From Kiritimatiellia bacterium (lineage in GTDB: Bacteria; Verrucomicrobiota; Kiritimatiellia; RFP12; UBA1067), in the NCBI GenBank assembly GCA_017631385.1, contig JAGBTH010000024.1, forward strand, positions 1 through 35,059: 35,059 nt of DNA, given 5' to 3'. The notes beneath the pieces were generated by a model. It was not told the DNA's origin. It saw nothing but the letters and a program-made list of their open reading frames with translations, and did no database searches. Position 1 is the first letter of the stretch. Each line of letters begins with the position of its first letter. The position numbers were made by a program, and so were the translations under genes. Shown here one piece after another: positions 8,458 through 20,311 of the stretch.

Positions 8458-9999
8458 ATGTCCAAACGTTTATTACTTTTAACGCCACCTTTATTGCAAC
8501 CAAATTGTCCATATCCAGCTACGCCGCATTTAGTTGGGTTTCTTTCTTCAAAAGGCTTTGATGTACATCAAAGAGATCTCTCCATTAAGGTAGTACTTGA
8601 TTTGCTATCTAAATACGGTGGTGATGAAGCTGAAGAGCTAATTGAATTTCTCCAAGGTCCAGCTCCTTTTATTGAAAAACGCAAGGCCAGTGCAATTATT
8701 GACGAGTTAGCAGTTTGGATCCGAGATAATGTTGATGAAAGTTTTGGATTTTCGCGTTATGCTGAACATCTTTGTACTGCGATTGATGATTTTGGAGAAT
8801 TTGAAAAATTAATTCGTCGTAGAAGCATTATTGACGCGCCTCTAAAAACGCATCTAAAAAGCGTAATGGACGAAATAAAGCCAGATGTAGTAGGCTTTAC
8901 ATGTCCATTCCCAGGAACGCTCCTAGCAGCGTTTAAGGCTGCGCGTTATATAAAGCAGCATTACCCGAAAGTACGTCTCGTTTTAGGCGGAGGCTATGTC
9001 TCTAGTGAACTTCGTTCAATGAATGACACTCGACCTAAAAAATACTTTGATGATTTTATATTAGACGAGGGTTATATTCCATTAGCGAAAATCCTTTCTC
9101 CTCGTACACGACTTACCGAAAAGGATGTTCCAGTTTTTGTAAAGCCCTCATATCGCGGTTTGGATATGAGTGAATATTTTGATGTTGTTGAGACAGATAA
9201 TTTTGTAACAACGCTCTGGAGCGCTGGTAAGTGGCGAAAGCTTATCATGGCTCGCGGTTGTTATTGGCATAAATGTGCATTTTGCGATGTAAAGTTACCG
9301 TACATTGGATGTTTTAAAATGCCTAAAGCTACTGACATAGTTGATGCTATGCAAGAGCTAGGAACTCAATTTCATTTTGTTGACGAGGCTATGCCTCCAG
9401 CGCTCATTAAAGGCGTTTGCGAAGAAATACTTAAGCGTAAATTTAAATGTGAATGGTGGGGTAATATTCGCTTTGATAAAGCTTTTGCTCCATCATTAGT
9501 ACGCCTTATGGCTAAGGCTGGTTGTATAGCTGTTACCGGAGGCTTAGAGTGCGCTAATGATAGGCTTTTAAAGTTAATGAATAAGGGGATAACCTTAGAA
9601 TCGTCAAAGCGTGTTTTAAAGGCGTTTAAAGCATCTGGAATTGCTGTTCATGCGTATTTAATGTATGCATTCCCAACTCAAACTAAAGAAGAAGCTTTAG
9701 GTGCGCTTGATTATGTGCGTAGTCTTTTTGTAGAAGGGCTCATAGATAGCGCATTTTGGCATCGCTTCGCGCTTACAGTTCACTCTCCTGTTGCCGCTAA
9801 CCCAGAGGCGTTTGGTATTACTATAGAAGATTCACAACTCAATAAGCGTAAAATATTCGCTCATAATGAGATTTTTTATACCGAAAAAAGATCCCCCGAT
9901 TGGCTTTCTATTGGCAATGCTCTTACATTAGCTGTCGCCAATTATTGTGAAGGTCGAGGGCTTAAAAAAAATGTAAAATTTTGGTTTATTCGAAAATAA
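8458..9999 (+). CDS. Radical SAM protein with B12-binding-like N-domain
   Basis: A 513-residue protein. Residues 1-220 look like the B12-binding fold of this superfamily (KRLLLLTPPLL at the start, VGFTCPFPGTL, RLVLGGGYVSSELR at 173-186), but the cobalamin DxHxxG motif is not visible, so cofactor binding is doubtful. The radical SAM domain begins at MARGCYWHKCAFCD. Its three cysteines, 268, 273 and 276, are spaced Cx4Cx2C instead of the usual Cx3Cx2C. GGLECANDRLLKLMNKGI matches the radical SAM barrel. The C-terminal HRFALTVHSPVAANP resembles uncharacterised BchE-like proteins. The enzyme should cleave S-adenosylmethionine with a 4Fe-4S cluster; the substrate is unknown. The 3' end overlaps the convergent GH92 gene by 14 bases, with no clear terminator. 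Confidence 0.8.
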   Translation: MSKRLLLLTPPLLQPNCPYPATPHLVGFLSSKGFDVHQRDLSIKVVLDLLSKYGGDEAEELIEFLQGPAPFIEKRKASAIIDELAVWIRDNVDESFGFSRYAEHLCTAIDDFGEFEKLIRRRSIIDAPLKTHLKSVMDEIKPDVVGFTCPFPGTLLAAFKAARYIKQHYPKVRLVLGGGYVSSELRSMNDTRPKKYFDDFILDEGYIPLAKILSPRTRLTEKDVPVFVKPSYRGLDMSEYFDVVETDNFVTTLWSAGKWRKLIMARGCYWHKCAFCDVKLPYIGCFKMPKATDIVDAMQELGTQFHFVDEAMPPALIKGVCEEILKRKFKCEWWGNIRFDKAFAPSLVRLMAKAGCIAVTGGLECANDRLLKLMNKGITLESSKRVLKAFKASGIAVHAYLMYAFPTQTKEEALGALDYVRSLFVEGLIDSAFWHRFALTVHSPVAANPEAFGITIEDSQLNKRKIFAHNEIFYTEKRSPDWLSIGNALTLAVANYCEGRGLKKNVKFWFIRK

Positions 10000-12130
10000 G
10001 TTCACCACCAGCTAGAATATCAGTGTGGCTTATTTTCATCTCTTTTAGTTCCTTGCCGTTTAGATAGACTTTGTCATTTAAACTTACTTTTTCGCCAGGC
10101 TTTTTAGCGATAATGGTGAATATTTTACCGTTAGGTAGTCTAAGCGTAGTTTTAGGTACTTGAGGCGCTCCTAAAATATATTCTCCTCCACAAGGATTAA
10201 CGGGATAAAATCCCATCATTGAGAAAATATACCATGCGCTCATTTGGCCACCGTCTTCATTGCCGCAAATTCCTTCAGGTGTAGCTTTATAAAGAGTTTC
10301 GCAGATTTCTTTAGCGAGCTTAGCGGTTTTGTCGCGGCGGCCTGCAATTGTATAAAGGTAGATTATGTGGTGGCTCGGCTCATTACCGTGAGCATATTGA
10401 CCGATTAAGCCCGTTACGTCGAGAACTTCACCCATTTCTTCGGCTGTTGCCTTAAGAGTAAAGAGTTTATCTAATTTTTCAACGAATTTTTCGCGCCCAC
10501 CAGCCATTTTAATTAGAGCTGGAATATCTTGCATTACATGAAAAGTATACTGCCAAGAATTACCTTCACAAAAATCCCCCGCTAATTTTACAGGGCTAAA
10601 GTTCTGCCGCCATTCGCCTTTTGTATTTTTGCCGCGCGCGAAACCGCAGCTGAAATCTACGACATTACGCCAACGTTCAGCGCGTTTTGAAAAAAGCTCT
10701 GCATCGTCTTTTCGCCCTAGCGCTTTAGCCATTTCTGCTGCGCACCAATCATCATACGCGGCTTCCATAGTTCTTGATACGCTAGAATGCTTGATTTTAT
10801 CGTATGGATAATATCCAAAATTATCGTAAAGATCCCAATTTTCGCGACGACGACCTTTATGCTTAACCGTTAAAGTTTCTTTAATTTGATCAAAAGTCGA
10901 ATTCCAGTAAATAAGGTCCTTGTCTGTAAGTTTATCTTTATTTTTTAAGAACCAGTCTACGATAATCGGTACTGAGTGAGTTCCGATCATACACTGAGTT
11001 TCATATCCCCAAAGTGAAAATTGCGGTAAATACCCAGTAATTCGACCTTGTTCACGCATCGATTCAATAAAGTCATCGAATCTTTCGCCGTCAATAATCG
11101 TCATTAGTGGCGCTGCTGCTCGGAATGTATCCCATGTACCGAAAGTCGTGTAGAACTTTTTAGCATTAACATCCGAAACTAAATGAGGTTGAAGGTGATG
11201 GTGATAAAGAGCTGTATACCAGATTTTCTTTTGCTCTTCAGTTCCTTCAATTTCAGCGCGGCGAAATACATTTTCCCAGGCGTTTTTAGCTTTAGCATAA
11301 ACTCCCTCAAAATCCCAGTTTGGAATCTCGCTTTTAAGATTATTCTCCGCGTCGGCTATAGTATTGCGCGAAAGGGCGAGTTTTATAAGAAGTTCTTTGT
11401 TATTCTCTAAATCGAAAGTAAAGACGAGTCGCTTACCTTTTTCAGACTCGTGGCGCTTAGGGAGCTCCTTTAATGAAGTATAAGCGCGATTGAACATAAC
11501 CGCGAATGCCACGTCGCGCTCAGTCCAGCTTTTAGTGCTTCTAGTAGCCGTAAAGCCTAACTTATCCTTACGCGGCGTGTAATCCATTTTAAGGACATAT
11601 TCCTCAGGTTTATAATATTTAGGGTGAGCTATAACTCCCCATTGCATATCAACTAATAGATTTATTACCCCGCCAGTTGGCGCGGTAATTCTGTAAATCG
11701 CGCTACGTCCTTGAACAGTAGTTTCGACGCGGATTTTAGACTCTGCTAGAGTTGTTGCGTAATATCCAGGTTTAGCGACTTCGACTGATTTATCGACGGC
11801 TACAGGACCATTAGGCGTTTCACCAATAAATGGCAATAAAAGCATATCGCCTAAATCAGTACATCCGCCCCCGCTAAAGTGAGTTTGAGAAAAACCATAA
11901 ACTACCTTATCTTCATAGCGATAGCCACCACAATAATCCCAACTGTAATTACCAGAATCGGGTGAAGCTTGAATCATCCCGAATGGTGTGCAAGCGCCAG
12001 GGTAATTATGCCCATTAGCTGATGTTCCTATAAACGGATTAGCATAATCAGTTAGACATTCGGCATTCGCAGTTAAAAGCGAAAATGACGTAACTATCGC
12101 TATAAGATTAGGTAGAAGGTGATTATTCAT
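9986..12130 (-). CDS. Secreted GH92 alpha-mannosidase
   Basis: A 714-residue glycoside hydrolase of family 92, the Ca2+-dependent inverting exo-alpha-mannosidases that trim N-glycans and yeast mannan. The N-terminal 23 residues are a hydrophobic signal ending SLLTANA, so the protein is exported. YANPFIGTSANGHNYPGA starts the N-terminal beta-sandwich. GNEPSHH near residue 582 carries the catalytic-acid glutamate (about 584), and EDGGQMSAW near 625 carries the aspartate assigned to general base and calcium chemistry in characterised members. GDFCEGNSWQYTFH is also typical. The linkage (alpha-1,2, -1,3, -1,6) cannot be read reliably. The gene starts four bases after the GH2 stop, so the two form an operon. 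Confidence 0.93.
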   Translation of the reverse strand: MNNHLLPNLIAIVTSFSLLTANAECLTDYANPFIGTSANGHNYPGACTPFGMIQASPDSGNYSWDYCGGYRYEDKVVYGFSQTHFSGGGCTDLGDMLLLPFIGETPNGPVAVDKSVEVAKPGYYATTLAESKIRVETTVQGRSAIYRITAPTGGVINLLVDMQWGVIAHPKYYKPEEYVLKMDYTPRKDKLGFTATRSTKSWTERDVAFAVMFNRAYTSLKELPKRHESEKGKRLVFTFDLENNKELLIKLALSRNTIADAENNLKSEIPNWDFEGVYAKAKNAWENVFRRAEIEGTEEQKKIWYTALYHHHLQPHLVSDVNAKKFYTTFGTWDTFRAAAPLMTIIDGERFDDFIESMREQGRITGYLPQFSLWGYETQCMIGTHSVPIIVDWFLKNKDKLTDKDLIYWNSTFDQIKETLTVKHKGRRRENWDLYDNFGYYPYDKIKHSSVSRTMEAAYDDWCAAEMAKALGRKDDAELFSKRAERWRNVVDFSCGFARGKNTKGEWRQNFSPVKLAGDFCEGNSWQYTFHVMQDIPALIKMAGGREKFVEKLDKLFTLKATAEEMGEVLDVTGLIGQYAHGNEPSHHIIYLYTIAGRRDKTAKLAKEICETLYKATPEGICGNEDGGQMSAWYIFSMMGFYPVNPCGGEYILGAPQVPKTTLRLPNGKIFTIIAKKPGEKVSLNDKVYLNGKELKEMKISHTDILAGGELIFE

Positions 12131-12134
12131 ATTC

Positions 12135-14390
12135 TTATTTTACTGACGCAGAAAGATCACGTACGCTAAGGCGCTTTTCGATAGGTTCATCCGTTGTTAA
12201 TTTAGGCGTATAAATAAATACCTTTTCGCCTTTTTCCATATCAACGAGATTATCATCGAATCTAGCGTTCGGATCAATCGCATCCTCAAGCCATACGAAA
12301 TACGCCTTGTCATCAGCCTTGACCGTTACCGAATACGAGCCATTGTCATTTTTCTTTATCGAAGTTATACGTACATTCGCCTTAGGAAGTGGAGCGGACT
12401 TATAATCAATATTACGCAATTCCTCAGCGCGCTTCTTAGAATCATAGTTAGGCGCGAAGAAGCGCTTCATAGCATAGTGGAGCGGCTTCCAGCGACCATC
12501 ATATTCGATAGAGCTCCAGCTCGCGACTGGCCACCAATCGTTTAACTGCCATACGATTGCTCCGCGGCAACGAGGCCAAAGCGAACGCCAATACGCTACA
12601 GCGGTCTCAATGGCGAGGGCCTGCTGAACCTGCGAAAGATAAAGCCGAGAAGCGAAATCCTTAGGCTCGGGGAAGTAGCGAGCGAGCATTTTATTCATCT
12701 TGTCGTTACCGCCATTATTTTTCTGATGGGCGAGCATTACACGGGAGTTTACATCAAAATCCCCGCGTTTTTCATCAGCGAATGTTTTAACTACAGGTAG
12801 CGACGGGAAGCTTTGGAATCCAAATTCACTGCAAAAACGCGGCTGAAGCTGGTAGTACCCCGAAAGATCTCTCGCGCCATGCCAAACGCCCCAATAATGC
12901 GAGTCGCCACTTTCTCCAGTAAGTTCATTATATGTAAAGTCCCCTGGTCCCGCGCAAGGTGAACTCGGCCACCAAATTGTATTAGGCGCGTTTTCTTTAA
13001 CAGCGTTAGCTAAAACCGCATTCCAAGCGATCCAATCATCGCGGTATTTGCAAGGCTCTCTAACTGCCGCGATACACTCATTATCACCGCACCAAAGGAA
13101 AATAGACGTATACTTTTTAAGTCTTAAGACCTGATGTTTAGCTTCTGCCGCGATTTCGTCGAGAAAATCCTTTCGAGCGGGATAGCGAGCGCATGCGAAC
13201 ATAAAGTCTTGCCAAATAAGAAGCCCGAGCTCATCGCACGCTTCATAAAAAGCATCATTCTCGTATTCGCCGCCTCCCCAAACACGAATCGTATTCATGT
13301 TAGCATCTGCCGCGCTTTTTAGAAGAGAGCGAATTCTTTCAGGCGTGCGACGCGAAGGGAATGCATCACATGGTATCCAATCAGCACCTAAAGAGAAGAT
13401 GTCCTTACCATTTACGCGAAAGCCGAATGATTCGCCCTTACCATCCTTTTCACGAACGAGTTCAAATTTTCTAATGCCAACGCGCCCTGAGATTTTAACT
13501 CCCCCAAAATCAACGCTCCAAGGATAGAGCCTTTGATTACCCATACCATTAGGCCACCAAAGTTCAGGGTTTTCTACCTTAAAGATAGCGGGCTTAGAAG
13601 GTGAAATTTCTTTCTTTTCGCCATTAAATTCGCAAACACCAATATTGTTTTTCGCCTTTTTACCATTAGTAAGCGCATATACGCGAATCTCAGCGGATTT
13701 ATCATCTTTAATCTCGGCTTCAGCCCAAGCGTATTTCAAAAGCGGTGCCCCATTTTCGGGCGCAACAAGGCGGACATTGCCGTAGATGCCAGAGACTGGA
13801 AGTGAAACTCCCCAATCCCAGCCAAAGCAGCATTGAGTCTTTCTAAGAGCATTAATAGCGCGGCAAGTAGTAACAGCCCAGCTACGCACATCATAATCGG
13901 GAGTGCGAAGCCAAAGCTCGCTAGCTATGCGGCGCGGCGCTTTTACGCGAACTTCGATAGCGTTTTTACCTTTATTTAGCTTTTTAGTTACAGGGATAGA
14001 CCACTTACGAAATTGGTTAGTAACAGAAGCGATCTTTACCTTATTTAAGTAAATATCAGCGGCCGTATCGATTGAATCGAATTCGAGGTAAGTCTTTTTA
14101 GAACTAAAGGTTTCGGGTAAATTAAACTCTCGCGAGAAAGTCCAATCTACATCACCGATCCATTGAACAGTATCTTCGATATTGCGATAAAAAGGGTCGG
14201 GTATAAATTTAGCTTCTAAAAGGGCACTCGCATTATCACCAGGGATATTACATGGCCATGTCTTAGAAATCGCCGGCGTAGAAAGCTGCCAAAGGCCAGC
14301 GAGATTAAGTTCGGCTGAGTAGCCGTTAAGAACAGTGAAAAGCGATAACGCGGCAAAAGCCGTCTTAAGAGTTTTAAAGTTATTATTCAT
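12135..14390 (-). CDS. Secreted GH2 beta-mannosidase
   Basis: A 751-residue retaining beta-mannosidase of glycoside hydrolase family 2. A signal peptide ends around GYSA at residues 23-26. The N-terminal jelly roll has the beta-mannosidase pattern (AGLWQLS, VDWTFSREF, YLEFDSIDTAADIYLN), then CCFGWDWG, IRVWGGGEYENDAFYEACDE, the acid/base Glu438 in LWCGDNE, and the nucleophile Glu522 in FCSEFGF. The expected job is to remove beta-1,4-linked mannose, as in the Man-GlcNAc core of N-glycans or in mannan oligosaccharides. It is the first gene of the pair with GH92. A strong extended -10 element lies only seven bases before its ATG, so the message is probably leaderless; no ribosome site is possible there. 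Confidence 0.93.
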   Translation of the reverse strand: MNNNFKTLKTAFAALSLFTVLNGYSAELNLAGLWQLSTPAISKTWPCNIPGDNASALLEAKFIPDPFYRNIEDTVQWIGDVDWTFSREFNLPETFSSKKTYLEFDSIDTAADIYLNKVKIASVTNQFRKWSIPVTKKLNKGKNAIEVRVKAPRRIASELWLRTPDYDVRSWAVTTCRAINALRKTQCCFGWDWGVSLPVSGIYGNVRLVAPENGAPLLKYAWAEAEIKDDKSAEIRVYALTNGKKAKNNIGVCEFNGEKKEISPSKPAIFKVENPELWWPNGMGNQRLYPWSVDFGGVKISGRVGIRKFELVREKDGKGESFGFRVNGKDIFSLGADWIPCDAFPSRRTPERIRSLLKSAADANMNTIRVWGGGEYENDAFYEACDELGLLIWQDFMFACARYPARKDFLDEIAAEAKHQVLRLKKYTSIFLWCGDNECIAAVREPCKYRDDWIAWNAVLANAVKENAPNTIWWPSSPCAGPGDFTYNELTGESGDSHYWGVWHGARDLSGYYQLQPRFCSEFGFQSFPSLPVVKTFADEKRGDFDVNSRVMLAHQKNNGGNDKMNKMLARYFPEPKDFASRLYLSQVQQALAIETAVAYWRSLWPRCRGAIVWQLNDWWPVASWSSIEYDGRWKPLHYAMKRFFAPNYDSKKRAEELRNIDYKSAPLPKANVRITSIKKNDNGSYSVTVKADDKAYFVWLEDAIDPNARFDDNLVDMEKGEKVFIYTPKLTTDEPIEKRLSVRDLSASVK

Positions 14391-14397
14391 GTGGATA

Positions 14398-14406
14398 ATT
14401 ATACCA
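14398..14406 (-). promoter_or_regulatory. Extended -10 promoter of the mannosidase operon
   Basis: On the minus strand the sequence reads TGGTATAAT, a full extended -10 (TGnTATAAT), preceded by AATAATT. Seven bases separate it from the ATG at 14390, so transcription should start at or within a base or two of the start codon. No good -35 is visible, which is normal for extended -10 promoters. Confidence 0.75.
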
Positions 14407-14435
14407 AATTATTTCGTCATAGTATCTAATAATTT

Positions 14436-14444
14436 TGGTATAAT
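14436..14444 (+). promoter_or_regulatory. Extended -10 promoter of the symporter operon
   Basis: TGGTATAAT, an extended -10, with TATAAT at 14439-14444. The ATG of the AGCS gene is at 14455, so a start site about seven bases downstream of the -10 leaves roughly four untranslated bases. The -35 region is weak. It is the mirror image of the mannosidase promoter. Confidence 0.75.
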
Positions 14445-14454
14445 ATTAAGAATT

Positions 14455-15963
14455 ATGCTATTATCATCAATAAATTCAGTAGATTCGAGCAACTGGCTTC
14501 AAGTTGCTACAAAGATTGTCGACAAGGTTGATTCTGAGGTATGGGGATTGCCATTAATAAGTGCAATTCTTTTTACGGGAATTTTATTAACTTGTATTTT
14601 AAGATTTTCTCACATTTTTAATTTAAAGCATGCTTTCGCATGTATGTTTAAATATGAGGAGAATGCCGGTGGAGAGGTAAGTCAATTTGGTGCGCTTTGT
14701 ACAGCGCTTTCGGCTACAATAGGAACTGGTAATATCGTTGGTGTCGCTACAGCTATTGGTATAGGCGGTCCTGGCGCTCTTTTTTGGATGGAGGTCGCGG
14801 CGTTTTTTGGTATGGCGACTAAGTATGCAGAGGGACTTTTAGCTGTTAAGTATCGAGAAGTGGCGCCTGACGGGAGTGTTTTAGGAGGTCCTTTTTATTA
14901 TATTGAAAGGGGACTTTCGGGTAAATTCGGTATTAAAAATTGGAAGTGGCTGGCGGTAATATTCGCTCTTTTTGGTATTTTAGCTGGCATAATGGGTATA
15001 GGTACGATTACTCAAATTCATGGTATAACATCTGCAGTGCAACACTTTTTTAATCCAGCGTTTAATCCCTCAGATGCTGCAAGTGGGGTTACTCTTTTTG
15101 GAACGGTGTATCCTGTAAGTGTAATTGTAGCTGGTGTAATTGTTACATGTTTAGTAGGTTTAGTAATCATTGGTGGTCTTAAGCGCATTGCTTCAGTTTC
15201 GACGGTTGTTGTTCCTTTTATGGCTGTATCGTATGTTTTAATTATTTTCTTGTTGCTCGTATGCAATATAACTAAAATACCTAATGCTATAGAAATTATT
15301 GTTCGCGCGGCGTTTGATCCTTCGGCGATTACTGGAGGTGCAGTAGGGTCAATGTTTGTTGCGATGCAAATGGGTGTCGCGAGAGGTATTTTTTCGAATG
15401 AGGCAGGCCTCGGCTCAGCTCCAATTGCTGCAGCGGCGGCTAAAACTAACGAGCCGGCTAGACAGGGCTTAGTGTGTATGACGGGAACGTTTATTGATAC
15501 TATTGTTATCTGTACAATGACCGGTTTAGCGATAGTAGTAACAGGCGCGTGGGAGCCGTCGTTAAATCTTAAGGGAGTTAATATTACCATTGAGGCTTTT
15601 AACCGTGGTTTTTCATTTATGGGGTCATTTTCAAAAGATTTCTCGGGTCTATTTTTAATGACAGCGCTTTCGTTTTTTGCATTTACAACGATTCTCGGGT
15701 GGAATTATTATTCAGAAAAGTGCTTAGAGTATCTAGTTGGATCTAAAAGGCCTATTATATTTAAGATATACCGTATTATTTATGTAGCCATCGTCTTTGT
15801 TGGACCATATCTCACTGTTTCAATGGTCTGGGGGTTAGCTGATGTGTTTAACGGGCTGATGGCATTCCCTAACTTAATAGCCCTAGTCCTTCTTTCGCCA
15901 GTAGTCTGGTGCGTTACGAAAGATTATTATAAAAAGAAATCTGTCGATAGGCCCGAGATGTAA
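14455..15963 (+). CDS. Alanine/glycine:cation symporter (AGCS family)
   Basis: A 502-residue inner-membrane transporter with about ten or eleven hydrophobic helices. AGCS signatures are present: FGALCTALSATIGTGNIVG (residues 78-96), GPGALFWMEVAAFFGMATKYAE, GVARGIFSNEAGLGSAPIAA, and a late WNYYSEKCLEYL. Members carry alanine, glycine or D-alanine inward with Na+ or H+. The frame is open further upstream to 14335, but that part runs antisense through the GH2 start and across two promoters. ATG 14455, just after the TATAAT at 14439-14444, is the better start. The message is probably leaderless. Glycerate kinase follows after 20 bases. A Na+ partner would fit the predicted sodium-type V-ATPase at 29362-32104. 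Confidence 0.92.
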   Translation: MLLSSINSVDSSNWLQVATKIVDKVDSEVWGLPLISAILFTGILLTCILRFSHIFNLKHAFACMFKYEENAGGEVSQFGALCTALSATIGTGNIVGVATAIGIGGPGALFWMEVAAFFGMATKYAEGLLAVKYREVAPDGSVLGGPFYYIERGLSGKFGIKNWKWLAVIFALFGILAGIMGIGTITQIHGITSAVQHFFNPAFNPSDAASGVTLFGTVYPVSVIVAGVIVTCLVGLVIIGGLKRIASVSTVVVPFMAVSYVLIIFLLLVCNITKIPNAIEIIVRAAFDPSAITGGAVGSMFVAMQMGVARGIFSNEAGLGSAPIAAAAAKTNEPARQGLVCMTGTFIDTIVICTMTGLAIVVTGAWEPSLNLKGVNITIEAFNRGFSFMGSFSKDFSGLFLMTALSFFAFTTILGWNYYSEKCLEYLVGSKRPIIFKIYRIIYVAIVFVGPYLTVSMVWGLADVFNGLMAFPNLIALVLLSPVVWCVTKDYYKKKSVDRPEM

Positions 15964-15983: not shown

Positions 15984-17105
15984 ATGAAAGTTTTAATAGC
16001 GATAGATTCTATGAAAGGTAGCCTTAGCTCTATAGAGGGCGGTAGGGCTATTGCTGATGGTATTCATCGCGTTTTTACCAATGCAGATTGCGAAGTTAGG
16101 CCTTTAGCTGATGGAGGAGAGGGTACTTTAGAAGCTTTAGTTTCGGGTCTTGGAGGCGAGATAAAAGAAATTACTGTATCAGGACCTAACAGTAAGCCTA
16201 TCAAAGCGGTTTATGGGCTTATTGGCAATACTGCCGTTATTGAAATGGCGCGTGCTGCTGGAATTACGCTCGTTACAGGAGAAGAAAAGAATCCTTTAGT
16301 AACGACTACTTATGGCGTAGGAGAGATGATAGCTGATGCCATTAAAAAGGGGGCTCGTAATTTTATTGTCGGCATTGGTGGTAGCGCTACGAACGACGGT
16401 GGAGTAGGTATGCTCCAAGCGCTTGGCTTTAGCTTTTTAGATGGTAATGGCTGTGAGCTAGTTCGCGGTGGCGCAGCTATTAAGAATCTTAAAACTATAG
16501 ATCGTTCTAAGGCGTTAACAGAATTAAATGAATGTGTTTTTAAGATTGCCTGTGATGTAACGAATCCGCTTTTAGGTCAGAATGGTGCGAGCGCTATATA
16601 TGGTCCTCAAAAGGGTGCGACGCTTGAGATGGTTAAAGAATTAGACTTAGCTCTCGGAGTTTTAGCGGATGTTTCAAAAGGAGAGGCGGATTATCCAGGC
16701 GCTGGCGCAGCTGGCGGTTTAGGGTTCGCTTTCAGAACGTTTTTAAATGGCGAGCTTAAAAGCGGCGTTCAATTAGTGCTAGAAGAAACTCATTTTGAAG
16801 AGCGTGTCAAAAACGCTGATATTGTTGTTACAGGCGAAGGGCGACTCGATGATCAGACAATTATGGGTAAGGCTCCAATTGGTGTAGCTCGATTAGCTAA
16901 AAAGTATGGTAAAAAGGTTATCGCATTTTCAGGGTGTGTAACAGATGGTGCTAAGAAGGTTAATGAGCATGGGATTGATGCGTTTTTCCCGATTTTACGT
17001 TCAGTAGTAACTCTTGAGGAGGCGTTAGATAAAAATAACGCGGCTAAAAACTTAACTGATACAACGGAGCAGGTATTTAGATGTTTACAACTTATGGCGC
17101 ATTAA
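15984..17105 (+). CDS. Glycerate kinase (GarK/GlxK type)
   Basis: A 373-residue cytosolic kinase of the garK family that phosphorylates D-glycerate with ATP, usually to 2-phosphoglycerate. Matching features are IDSMKGSLSS at residues 8-16, RPLADGGEGTLEAL at 39-52, the glycine-rich VGIGGSATNDGG at 129-140, ACDVTNPLLG, and TGEGRLDDQT in the C-terminal half. The length is normal for the family. AGAGAAG upstream serves as ribosome site. The 3' end overlaps the start of the GntP-type permease gene by 25 bases, so the two are probably translated together. The pairing suggests that the permease brings in glycerate or a sugar acid that feeds this kinase. Confidence 0.93.
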   Translation: MKVLIAIDSMKGSLSSIEGGRAIADGIHRVFTNADCEVRPLADGGEGTLEALVSGLGGEIKEITVSGPNSKPIKAVYGLIGNTAVIEMARAAGITLVTGEEKNPLVTTTYGVGEMIADAIKKGARNFIVGIGGSATNDGGVGMLQALGFSFLDGNGCELVRGGAAIKNLKTIDRSKALTELNECVFKIACDVTNPLLGQNGASAIYGPQKGATLEMVKELDLALGVLADVSKGEADYPGAGAAGGLGFAFRTFLNGELKSGVQLVLEETHFEERVKNADIVVTGEGRLDDQTIMGKAPIGVARLAKKYGKKVIAFSGCVTDGAKKVNEHGIDAFFPILRSVVTLEEALDKNNAAKNLTDTTEQVFRCLQLMAH

Positions 17106-18337
17106 TCGCTCTAGTAATCGCGATTGTTTTAATTATACGAAAAGTAGTCCCTGCTTACGCGTTAATAATAGGTGCTTTAATTGGTGGGATTATTGGAGGC
17201 GGTGGACTTTCTGGGACTGTGAGCGCGATGATATCAGGCACTCAGTCAATGATGCCTAGCGTTCTTCGTATTCTCGCCTCTGGCGTATTGGTGGGAGCTC
17301 TCGTTAAGACTGGTAGCGCGGCGAAAATTGCTGATGCGATAGTTTCTGCCCTAGGCGTTCGCTTTGCGCTTATAGCAGTAGCTTTTGCTACAACAGTAGT
17401 TTGTTCTGTTGGTGTTTTTATTGATATTGCGGTAATTACTGTAGCTCCTATTGCGCTTGCTATTGGCGCTAAGGCTAAATTACCTGTTCCTGCGTTATTG
17501 CTCGCTATGATAGGCGGTGGTAAGGCAGGTAATATTATTTCTCCTAATCCTAATACAATCGCCGCGGCAGATGCTTTTAAGATTGAACTCACAGATTTAA
17601 TGACGGCTAATATTATCCCTGCGATATTCGCTTTTGGCGTTGCAGTTTTACTCTCGTTTTTTTTAGCCTCTCGTATGCGCAAATTGGGTGAAGTAGAATC
17701 TGCCGCGACTTTAGATAATAATGATATGGGTGAAAATGTTTCGCTTTTCAGAGCGCTTTTAGGTCCAATAACTGTTGTTGTGCTTTTATCCTTAAGACCT
17801 TTATTAGGAGTTGCTATTGATCCTCTTATTGCGCTACCAGCTGGTGGTATAGTATCAATGATATCATGTGGTAAATGGCGCGAAATGATTGAGTTTTCGC
17901 AATTTGGATTAGGTAAGGTAAGTGGAGTTGCTATTTTACTTATCGGTACTGGTACTATAGCTGGTATTATTAAGGCCTCTAACCTTAATTCTGATATGAT
18001 AGCCCTATTAGAGGTCCTTAAGTTACCTATGGTCGCATTAGCACCGATTTCTGGTATTTTAATGGCTGGCGCTACTGCATCAACAACAGCAGGTGCGACA
18101 ATTGCTTCTCAGACATTTTCATCAGCTCTCGTTCAATCGGGGGTTGCGCCAGTATCAGCAGCTGCGATGATACATGCTGGCGCAACTGTAGTTGATTCGC
18201 TTCCTCATGGTAGCTTTTTCCATGCAACTGGCGGGAGCGTGTTTATGGGTGTTAAGGAGCGTCTAAAACTCATTCCTTATGAAGCGGCCGTCGGTCTTAC
18301 AGCTACGATAATCTCTTGTATTTGTACAATAGGATAA
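17081..18337 (+). CDS. GntP family permease (gluconate/glycerate type)
   Basis: A 418-residue polytopic membrane protein with about 12 hydrophobic segments. Family features include SGTQSMMPSVLRILASGVLVG, SVGVFIDIAVITVAPIA, AMIGGGKAGNIISPNPNT and a C-terminal ATASTTAGATIASQTF with GATVVDSLPHGSFFHATGG. GntP proteins are H+ symporters for gluconate and related hydroxy acids. It is slightly shorter than the 440-450 residues of the Escherichia coli members. The ATG at 17081 lies inside the end of the glycerate kinase gene, and AGG at 17071-17073 may help initiation. Given the overlap, D-glycerate is the best substrate guess, but this is inference from context. Confidence 0.9.
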   Translation: MFTTYGALIALVIAIVLIIRKVVPAYALIIGALIGGIIGGGGLSGTVSAMISGTQSMMPSVLRILASGVLVGALVKTGSAAKIADAIVSALGVRFALIAVAFATTVVCSVGVFIDIAVITVAPIALAIGAKAKLPVPALLLAMIGGGKAGNIISPNPNTIAAADAFKIELTDLMTANIIPAIFAFGVAVLLSFFLASRMRKLGEVESAATLDNNDMGENVSLFRALLGPITVVVLLSLRPLLGVAIDPLIALPAGGIVSMISCGKWREMIEFSQFGLGKVSGVAILLIGTGTIAGIIKASNLNSDMIALLEVLKLPMVALAPISGILMAGATASTTAGATIASQTFSSALVQSGVAPVSAAAMIHAGATVVDSLPHGSFFHATGGSVFMGVKERLKLIPYEAAVGLTATIISCICTIG

Positions 18338-18340
18338 ATT

Positions 18341-20311
18341 ATGAAAAAGATAATAATATTTGCATTTAAAATTACTAGTGTAATATCGTCTTTAATCGCG
18401 GCGCCTGTGGCGTGCGGACCATTGGAGCTTTCATGGGATTATCCGGGCGGTAATCTTAAGTTTCGCGGGTTTAAGGATGGCGTAGCTCAAATTGCGCCTG
18501 ATTTGCGCGACACGAACTTCGCGTGGTTTTATTGGAATTTCGAGGCTGTTGCTACTAAGGCGGGTAAGGTTAAGTTCGCTTTTCCTGTGGGCGCTTCGCG
18601 TCTTTCGGCGCAAGGTCCCGCTGTAAGTACGGACGGCGGAAAGTCGTGGAAATGGCTCGGCAAGGCTAAGACTCATTTTAGAAAGGGCGCGAAAGATTGC
18701 GATTCGTTCGAGTGGGAGTTTAAGAAGGTGGGCGAGAAGGTTCGCTTTGCTCAGGGCTTTCCGTATCAGCGCTCTAACTTCGAGGCGTTTTATTCTGAGT
18801 ACGCGTCGTCGCCATACATGAAGCGCGGCGTTTTAACGAAGACGCGCAAAGGCGTTGATGTTCCGATGGTTGTTATCGGTAAGGGCTCTAAGAATGTTCT
18901 TATTACGGCGCGTCACCACAGCTGCGAGGCGAGCGCGAGTTATGTGGTTGAGGGCTTTATGCGCGAGGCTTTAAGCGATTCTCCCGCAGGTAAGGAGTTT
19001 CGCGATAAATATACTCTTTATGTAATTCCGTTCGTGGATCTTGACGGTGTTGAGGCGGGCGACCAGGGCAAGAACCGCGCTCCTCACGATCATAACCGCG
19101 ATTACGGCCTCGGCGAAAAGGCTCTATATCCTGAGGTGAAAGCGATAATCAATCTCGATAAGGAGAAAAAGTTCTTTGTCGTTATGGATATGCATGCGCC
19201 TGCGGTCCGCGGCGATATTCATGAGGCGATTTATTTCGCAGGCCATAAGAGCCCGAGTAATGCCGCTAATTCTCATGAGTTTAAGGCGTGGTTGGATGAA
19301 GAACGTCCTAACGCCACTGGGCGTATCAAGGTGCTCGGTAAGCCTAAGGCCGCAAAAGTTTCGGGCGATACCGGGATTCCTTGCGGTCATTATTTCTCGG
19401 TTCACGGTACTCAAGTAGCGTATAGCGCGACATTTGAATTTGCGTATGCAAACAGCAATTACAATTATGACGATAAGGCGCTTTTGAAATATGGCGAGGG
19501 GATGTGCCGCGCATTCGTAAGGCTTGATATCTCTAAGAGCGCCGAGCCGCGCAAGGGATATGCGGAATTCGCGGCGTTTACGAAGAAGCTTTCTGCGGGT
19601 TTGTCTAAAGATATTGTTAAAAAGACTACAGACGCGATTACTAAAGGCGGCATCGCCGGGCATTACCTTATGGCGGCACATTTAGCGAGAGCAGGCGCGT
19701 ATTATAAGATGAAGAACTTTAATGAAGCGCTAGCTGATAATGAGGTGGTTATTAATTCGCCTTACGCTACTCAGACTCAGCGCAACAAGGCGGCTTTTGG
19801 GATTATGCAGTCTCTTATCAATAATCCTAAAACAAAAGGTGAGACGGTTGATAAATGGCGCGAAAAGCTTTTAGGAGAGGGATATCATCTTTATGAAGTC
19901 TATGAGTGTTTGTATGCGTATTATTCTTCCGCTAAGCGTGATGACGATGCGGTCGCTATGGCCAAGATGCAGTTGCCGCTCGCTACGCAATTTAATACAG
20001 GTAGGGTAAGAAACCGCATAATGCGCTATGAGCTTAAACACGGCGATAAGGCTAAGGCGATAGAATATGCGCGAGAGACTGTAGCGGTTTTGAAGCCTAA
20101 AATCTATCCTGTTGTTCCGCCAGGAGTGTTCGGGCCTGATATGGTGATTGACTGTGTTACCGCGATGGCGCTTCTACCTGAAACGACGGTTGAGGAGATT
20201 GAGAAAATCGCCAAGCTCGGCCTTAATCACAAAATCTGTTATGATTATAAGCGTAAAAAGCTTGAAAAGCTCGTCGACGATTTTAAGACTAAATGTGCTC
20301 AACAGAAATAA
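18341..20311 (+). CDS. Exported M14 carboxypeptidase, CCP-like, with TPR-like tail
   Basis: A 656-residue exported protein with a signal segment of about 20 residues. Residues 28-150 form a beta-rich domain (SWDYPGGNLKF, NFAWFYWNFEA) resembling the N-domain of cytosolic carboxypeptidases. The M14 catalytic set is complete: zinc ligands His193 and Glu196 in RHHSCE, substrate-binding Asn252-Arg253 in DHNRDYG, third ligand His285 in VMDMHAP, and general base Glu366 in TFEFAYA. From about residue 430 the chain is helical and TPR-like (AGAYYKMKNFNEALADNEVV). The expected role is removal of C-terminal amino acids outside the cytoplasm. It starts three bases after the GntP gene. Its first half is richer in G+C than its neighbours (36 of 60 at 18601-18660). 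Confidence 0.85.
   Translation: MKKIIIFAFKITSVISSLIAAPVACGPLELSWDYPGGNLKFRGFKDGVAQIAPDLRDTNFAWFYWNFEAVATKAGKVKFAFPVGASRLSAQGPAVSTDGGKSWKWLGKAKTHFRKGAKDCDSFEWEFKKVGEKVRFAQGFPYQRSNFEAFYSEYASSPYMKRGVLTKTRKGVDVPMVVIGKGSKNVLITARHHSCEASASYVVEGFMREALSDSPAGKEFRDKYTLYVIPFVDLDGVEAGDQGKNRAPHDHNRDYGLGEKALYPEVKAIINLDKEKKFFVVMDMHAPAVRGDIHEAIYFAGHKSPSNAANSHEFKAWLDEERPNATGRIKVLGKPKAAKVSGDTGIPCGHYFSVHGTQVAYSATFEFAYANSNYNYDDKALLKYGEGMCRAFVRLDISKSAEPRKGYAEFAAFTKKLSAGLSKDIVKKTTDAITKGGIAGHYLMAAHLARAGAYYKMKNFNEALADNEVVINSPYATQTQRNKAAFGIMQSLINNPKTKGETVDKWREKLLGEGYHLYEVYECLYAYYSSAKRDDDAVAMAKMQLPLATQFNTGRVRNRIMRYELKHGDKAKAIEYARETVAVLKPKIYPVVPPGVFGPDMVIDCVTAMALLPETTVEEIEKIAKLGLNHKICYDYKRKKLEKLVDDFKTKCAQQK

Follow-up and report, generated by a model that had tools for sequence, protein, structure and literature searches.

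A predicted exported zinc carboxypeptidase of a CCP-related M14 clade, apparently a recent arrival behind transport genes in a Kiritimatiellia genome

The window analysed here is the whole stretch of 35,059 nucleotides that makes up one entire contig (C21) of a Kiritimatiellia genome bin (2.02 Mb, 74% complete), which is a metagenome bin and may mix strains. The genes considered in it are:

9986-12130, minus strand: divergent GH92 glycosidase gene (Pfam match)
12135-14390, minus strand: divergent GH2 glycosidase gene (Pfam match)
14335..15963, plus strand: agcS, alanine/glycine:cation symporter (PF01235, 8.9e-136)
15984..17105, plus strand: glycerate kinase, glyK (PF02595, 4.2e-141)
17081..18337, plus strand: GntP-type permease (PF02447, 5.7e-13)
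18341..20311, plus strand: M14 (CCP-related) carboxypeptidase-like gene with a C-terminal helical region (ATG start, 656 aa)

The agcS, glycerate kinase, GntP permease and M14 genes follow one another on the same strand within 6 kb, and 3 bases separate the stop codon of gntP from the start codon of the M14 gene. The first-pass annotation had placed agcS in the same operon stretch as the M14 gene and their positions bear this out, with the glycerate kinase and the GntP permease, which it did not mention, lying between them. As listed, the agcS open reading frame shares 56 bases (14335-14390) with the divergent GH2 gene and its first ~70 residues fall outside the family profiles; for both reasons its true start is probably downstream of the listed one. 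The glycerate kinase and GntP-type permease genes recur jointly in the genus (loci L087, L090, L091 and L092, and 15984-18337 of the window) and are probably a glycerate uptake module. They are adjacent in three of four relatives and are separated by a 432-aa open reading frame in L092.

The protein encoded by the M14 gene has the following predicted features, all on the plus strand:

18341..18412: N-terminus resembling a signal peptide, residues 1 to about 24 (by eye and hydropathy window)
18419..18760: CCP-type N-domain, residues about 27-140 (profile alignment to 4a37/4b6z/3k2k/3l2n)
18761..19525: M14 catalytic domain, residues about 141-395 (Pfam and profile alignment)
18917..18928: H193-S-C-E196, first and second zinc ligands (67 of 67 rows that have a letter here)
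19058..19105: signature G240-D-Q-G243-K244-N-R246-A-P-H-D-H-N252-R253-D-Y255 (ungapped profile alignment)
19193..19195: H285, zinc ligand 3 (65 of 66 rows)
19436..19438: E366, catalytic Glu, equivalent to E344 of BcCCP and E270 of CPA (65 of 65 rows that have a letter here)
19529..20308: TPR-like C-terminal region, residues 397-656, helical throughout, with its clearest unit at about residues 445-474

Pfam's Peptidase_M14 model matches the window protein with an E of 1.7e-9, scoring 38.1 bits where the cut-off is 21.6. We aligned a 37-member clade profile with cytosolic carboxypeptidase (CCP) structures and obtained matches to the four bacterial ones, 4a37 (8.3e-31), 4b6z (1.1e-24), 3k2k (9.9e-24) and 3l2n (1.3e-23), that start in the N-domain (profile position 17-22) and in three of the four cases reach the catalytic Glu. 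Animal CCP5 was matched with an E of 2.6e-10, mainly across the catalytic core. Pfam's CCP N-domain model (PF18027) has no match in the window protein and matches three relatives, all below cut-off. The three N-domain motifs given for CCPs in PMC3940198, F(D,E)xGx(L,I), W(F,Y)(Y,N)(F,Y) and P(F,Y)(S,T), are degenerate in the window protein, which reads YPGGNL, WFYW and PYQ at these places and is thus two, one and one letters off. Likewise, the HPGE and NPDG motifs of CCPs read HSCE and DLDG, with the key H, E, D and G retained. An AF2 model of the whole protein (3 sequences) reached a pLDDT of 40.6, and its Foldseek matches to CCPs (best E 1.8e-7, TM 0.24-0.39) are too poor to count as evidence. 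The motifs that the first-pass annotation had reported are present as H193-S-C-E196, N252-R253-D-Y, D283-M-H285 and F365-E366-F367, and its CCP-like N-domain is borne out by the profile alignment through the N-domain of the four CCP structures. It had named a fold lacking this domain or a cytosolic location as outcomes counting against its reading; judged by sequence, neither came true. The predicted fold class of the window protein is thus CCP-like with an N-domain.

The tail that follows the catalytic domain is ~260 residues long and is rare, being matched in five of 387 genomes across the phylum plus a fragment in the same-genus genome G025. An AF2 model of it (3 sequences) has 14 helices at a mean pLDDT of 60.6, and Foldseek relates this model to the TPR proteins KLC1, RapH and Pex5 and also to 14-3-3, all at E above 0.001. 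The TPR_2 model matches residues 397-656 of the window protein at E 0.027, which is under the cut-off, TPR_12 matches three of the seven two-domain proteins of alignment A1 (best 5.9e-6) and the A1 profile matches a designed TPR protein at E 0.003. The C-terminal half that the first-pass annotation called TPR-like is helical and TPR-like, but its TPR character is weak in the window protein, where no repeat model reaches its cut-off.

Residue roles (zinc ligands, carboxylate pair and catalytic Glu) were assigned after the account of bacterial CCPs in PMC3940198. For comparison, 118 matches to the window protein at E 1e-12 were reduced to 68 clade rows by dropping near-duplicates, among them the copies on contig C99 of the same genome and in the same-genus genome G009, and one short match; these rows were picked by similarity to the window protein and do not draw the outer border of the clade. 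H193, E196, R253, D283, H285 and E366 are invariant among 37 family members (alignment A7). Across the clade rows, R253, the carboxylate-binding Arg (R145 of CPA), is likewise invariant (66 of 66), and the Asn of the carboxylate pair (N252; N144 of CPA) is N in 49, A in 15 and G in two of 66. BcCCP has a basic residue, K330, at S1', which is matched by R or H in just 21 of 37 clade members. Gly243 aligns ungapped with the oxyanion Arg of CCPs (R226 of BcCCP, R127 of CPA), and G243, K244 and R246 are the same in all 67 rows with letters. This Gly at the oxyanion-Arg position, together with the invariant Lys244 and Arg246, indicates a CCP-related clade with a predicted shift of the oxyanion element. 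Because the oxyanion Arg is absent from its usual position and the predicted location is not cytosolic, we do not file the window protein as a plain M14D/CCP member, although it should still act like a zinc carboxypeptidase.

The gene is under purifying selection. Between the window and C99 copies, 510 of 618 codons are identical, with 78 synonymous and 30 replacement differences, and the changes fall 25/10/89 by codon position. A partial near copy on another contig of the same genome (L034; G000:C29, 2-922, minus strand) has Gln at the third zinc-ligand His (DMQAP), which may be an assembly or strain effect since the position lies close to the contig edge.

The N-terminus of the window protein consists of MKK, a hydrophobic stretch and then small residues, as judged by eye and with a hydropathy window, and a similar signal-like N-terminus is found in all seven two-domain proteins of A1, the window protein included. 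An eighth two-domain protein with a divergent tail, the second copy in G071 (L049 6061-7959), lacks a clear one. The signal peptide and export claimed in the first-pass annotation thus hold as a prediction. Among rows of the clade tree, labelled by hydropathy window with correction by hand, 29 have an export-like signal, 28 do not and nine are unclear or fused. The quick tree requires nine changes between export states, five to six of which are forced by well-supported branches alone, so that export has been gained or lost repeatedly within the clade. The "new extracytoplasmic use" that had been suggested is only partly new: extracellular M14D peptidases are already listed for marine Group II archaea in PMC6336850, and 29 of the 57 labelled clade members carry an export-like signal.

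Besides the window gene, its own genome (G000) holds near copies on contigs C99 (93%) and C29 (92%, partial) and a 37% single-domain M14 relative; Pfam and clade-profile searches found no further M14 genes in the bin. DNA similarity between the window gene and the C99, C29 and G009 copies begins a single base ahead of the start codon and ends at the stop codon or contig edge. At four-fold sites the window and C99 copies differ from that of G009 by 26.1% and 20.8%, respectively, while four other genes shared with G009 differ by 69.1, 69.7, 64.9 and 73.5% and the single-domain M14 by 65.6%. The GC3 of the M14 gene (0.502) is the highest of the 27 open reading frames in the window, with close runners-up (0.481 and 0.462), and in a quick tree the window M14 groups with genes from other families (f48 and f60; SH-aLRT 99 in an 8-row set). 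Given the low four-fold-site difference, the similarity that ends at the ends of the open reading frame, the high GC3 and the position in the tree, the M14 gene looks like a recent arrival that came alone. No M14 gene lies upstream of the orthologue of the downstream neighbour in the three relatives inspected, and no repeat or cassette signature was seen at the gene junctions. Relatives were found neither on viral contigs (A1 search) nor on plasmids (no tblastn match). Contigs break inside near copies at L033 (base 3), L034 (base 2) and L036 (base 3), two of these being in G000 and one in G025. There may be additional copies beyond those assembled, since contigs end inside the gene as assemblies do at repeats, and how many copies each cell has is uncertain because a metagenome bin can mix strains.

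The first-pass annotation proposed an extracytoplasmic enzyme that releases Ala, Gly or Glu from peptides or peptidoglycan, with AgcS, encoded in the same operon, importing them. Co-transcription is plausible given the single-strand order of the four genes and the short gap after gntP, and an SDF-family (dicarboxylate/amino-acid) symporter gene lies a few genes downstream of M14 in both G009 and G025, the only sign elsewhere of a connection to transport. However, agcS, glyK and gntP were found in none of 52 loci of M14 relatives (about 3.5-20 kb each, some cut by contig ends), in a tblastn search that had a positive control and was repeated at E 10. Conversely, gntP is present in eight of 58 related genomes, the window's own included, and an M14 gene lies behind it at none of the five readable loci of relatives (two of them also with glyK); two more contigs end just past gntP. 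Because the transport genes are missing from all 52 M14 loci and M14 does not follow gntP in relatives, the AGCS link of M14 is not supported. The placement beside an amino-acid importer is probably accidental, since the gene apparently arrived singly, and we consider the proposed coupling very unlikely. The case shows that a guess from gene neighbours, here the symporter, can mislead when a gene is newly arrived.

At E 1e-10 the window protein has matches in 55 of 288 genomes across the phylum, with the signature checked in part of them. Its two-domain relatives lie mostly among polysaccharide-degrading genes. The locus in G071 holds two GH10 genes, an SDR, a beta-helix protein and another M14, and that in G097 a 59% identical beta-helix protein and a GntR regulator. 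In G281 a GntR regulator is accompanied by an oligogalacturonate lyase, pilin-like genes, a tandem pair of M14s and a protein of 728 aa with 46% identity to one in G097, and in G009 there are an esterase, the SDF symporter and an alpha-rhamnosidase, with a beta-helix protein on the opposite strand. The G025 locus has GH39, an esterase, the SDF symporter and a rhamnosidase, and a neighbour of the C99 copy has a NAGLU match under the cut-off. A protein of ~715-730 aa, almost without Pfam match, was seen near M14 in three genomes, with 46% identity between L050 and L051:

L050 11594-13768; L051 10839-13025 and 16716-18902; L114 449-2590: ~715-730 aa recurrent protein

No neighbour recurs strongly across the wider clade. 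The survey covered 44 test loci, four of which (L110, L111, L113 and L115) have no called M14 and contribute no neighbours; the other 40 gave 148 neighbours, scanned with Pfam as 2 x 74, and the top family among the matches listed (the best 25 of 96 and of 76 families) occurred in three of 74 and four of 74. Clustering of these neighbours yielded small groups only. Thirteen long clade proteins, a subset of those existing, were scanned for fusions, and the partners were GH42 and GH20 (two each, from two genomes), GH2, AXE1 and GH115 (one each) and PGA_cap (two). The carbohydrate-enzyme fusions are at L015, L014, L017, L038, L112, L041 and L039. No partner domain at E 0.001 was found in the proteins at L027, L028, L129 and L025, two of which are cut by a locus or contig end.

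The explanation that we favour, with about even confidence, is that the window protein, a member of a bacterial clade related to CCPs, is exported and acts as a zinc carboxypeptidase on peptides or glycopeptides. We infer the activity, the localisation in vivo, the substrate and the function of the tail as follows. The signal peptide would be removed upon export, after which H193, E196 and H285 would hold zinc and E366 would activate water. R253, with N252, would hold the substrate carboxylate, and K244 or R246 has probably taken over the role of the oxyanion Arg. The enzyme would trim C-terminal residues from peptides or glycopeptides that are released as partner enzymes remove plant or host glycans, with the helical tail holding substrate or partner. 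The gene would have entered the genome recently and singly, standing behind gntP by chance and perhaps using the promoter of that operon.

The fold class, the intact catalytic residues and the purifying selection, all computed directly, are consistent with this explanation, as are the signal-like N-termini of the seven A1 proteins, the glycan setting of the two-domain group and the fusions to GH2, AXE1, GH42, GH20 and GH115; the signs of recent arrival and the lack of a conserved AGCS link were also computed directly. Several points weigh against it. Two bacterial CCPs that were assayed gave no or little activity on the substrates tried (PMC3940198), the usual position of the oxyanion Arg lacks it and any residue named as its substitute is conjectural, and the neighbours in the wider clade include no strongly recurrent family. 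In addition, the SDF symporter beside M14 in G009 and G025 leaves room for an uptake role, the whole-protein model is poor and the bin can mix strains. The same missing Arg, with the Gln that replaces H285 in the partial C29 copy near its contig edge, would fit a catalytically dead binding protein. Such a protein is highly improbable, given that the zinc ligands and the catalytic Glu are invariant in every other row with letters and that purifying selection is evident. Alternatively, the M14 fold might not serve as a peptidase at all and might be re-used to cut amide or ester bonds by which amino acids or acyl groups are attached to polysaccharide. The seven carbohydrate-enzyme fusions, the polysaccharide neighbours of the two-domain group, the lost oxyanion Arg and the variable equivalent of Asn144 would suit this, but the invariant carboxylate clamp R253 fits a substrate with a free carboxylate, and we regard this alternative as improbable.

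The CapA fusions point to a different substrate again. CapA/PGA_cap is fused to a clade M14 in opposite orders at L022 (34-2613, E 7.8e-53) and L126 (3714-6167, E 1.2e-67), and in a pair of sister genomes (L097 and L101) an M14 gene comes immediately before CapA. No CapA was found in 40 control stretches (473 kb) from the same genomes. In 36 genomes selected for M14 matches, with the four known ties included, four of 34 CapA places are tied to M14, against about 0.1 expected by rough post hoc arithmetic. These ties suggest a gamma-glutamyl hydrolase, which would trim poly-gamma-glutamate or molecules tagged with gamma-glutamyl groups and would be the bacterial equivalent of the deglutamylases of animals, and PghL offers a precedent in which the residues at the places of Arg127, Asn144 and Arg145 of CPA are replaced (PMC6506827). 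A search of the window's own genome for a TTL-family tubulin-glutamylation partner gave no match but carries no weight, since its control gave none either. However, no CapA was found in the window's own genome at E 0.001 (bin 74% complete) or in any of 12 other same-genus genomes searched at E 1e-10, none lies near a two-domain member, and the four CapA-tied members lack a clear signal peptide, the one at L101 having one only from an upstream start. Moreover, the modest conservation of the K330 equivalent as R or H does not favour such a substrate, and for the window protein we consider this reading unlikely. A broader proposal, which we offer as unlikely, is that the GDQGKxR clade is a separate class of M14 enzymes whose oxyanion hole has been rebuilt from Gly and the invariant Lys/Arg, whose export has been gained or lost several times and whose members, joined to carbohydrate enzymes or CapA, would cleave gamma-glutamyl or glycan-linked amide bonds instead of ordinary peptide C-termini. 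If this were true, its exported forms would be an extracytoplasmic bacterial counterpart of the tubulin deglutamylases.

Literature searches returned no match on Kiritimatiellae with peptidase M14, none joining zinc carboxypeptidase with polysaccharide utilization and M14 and none joining zinc carboxypeptidase with Verrucomicrobia and signal peptide. In 2014, the function and substrates of bacterial CCP relatives were described as unknown in PMC3940198. The clade offers handles on this substrate question: an active-site change shared by all 67 rows compared, partner activities indicated by nine fusions (to glycan enzymes in seven cases and to CapA in two) and forms with predicted export, for which assays outside cells would be feasible.

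Among known systems, the animal tubulin deglutamylase CCP5/AGBL5 (8v3m, 8v3q) resembles the clade through the profile match noted above (E 2.6e-10). CCP5/AGBL5 is cytosolic, is larger and acts on tubulin tails. CCPs in general are described as cytosolic enzymes acting on tubulin tails in PMC3940198. The bacterial CCPs (M14D; BcCCP 4b6z, BmCCP 3k2k, SdCCP 3l2n and PaCCP 4a37) share with the window protein the N-domain followed by M14, the zinc ligands, the catalytic Glu and the Asn/Arg pair (PMC3940198). In contrast to them, the window protein is predicted to be exported, has Gly at the oxyanion-Arg position with a new invariant K and R, has degenerate CCP motifs and carries the extra 260-residue helical tail. 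Three further likenesses are by description only. The marine Group II archaeal peptidases (PMC6336850) share the M14D label and predicted export. The Helicobacter D,L-carboxypeptidase Csd4 shares a bacterial M14 fold with extra C-terminal domain(s), but differs in that one of its zinc ligands is Gln, that Arg86 and Arg94 are retained and that its C-terminal domain is Ig-like (PMC4220969). Finally, the gamma-PGA hydrolases PghP and PghL share a carboxypeptidase-like zinc fold in which the Arg127, Asn144 and Arg145 places are altered, and PghL has His, Thr and Ser at these places where the window protein has G243, N252 and R253 (PMC6506827).
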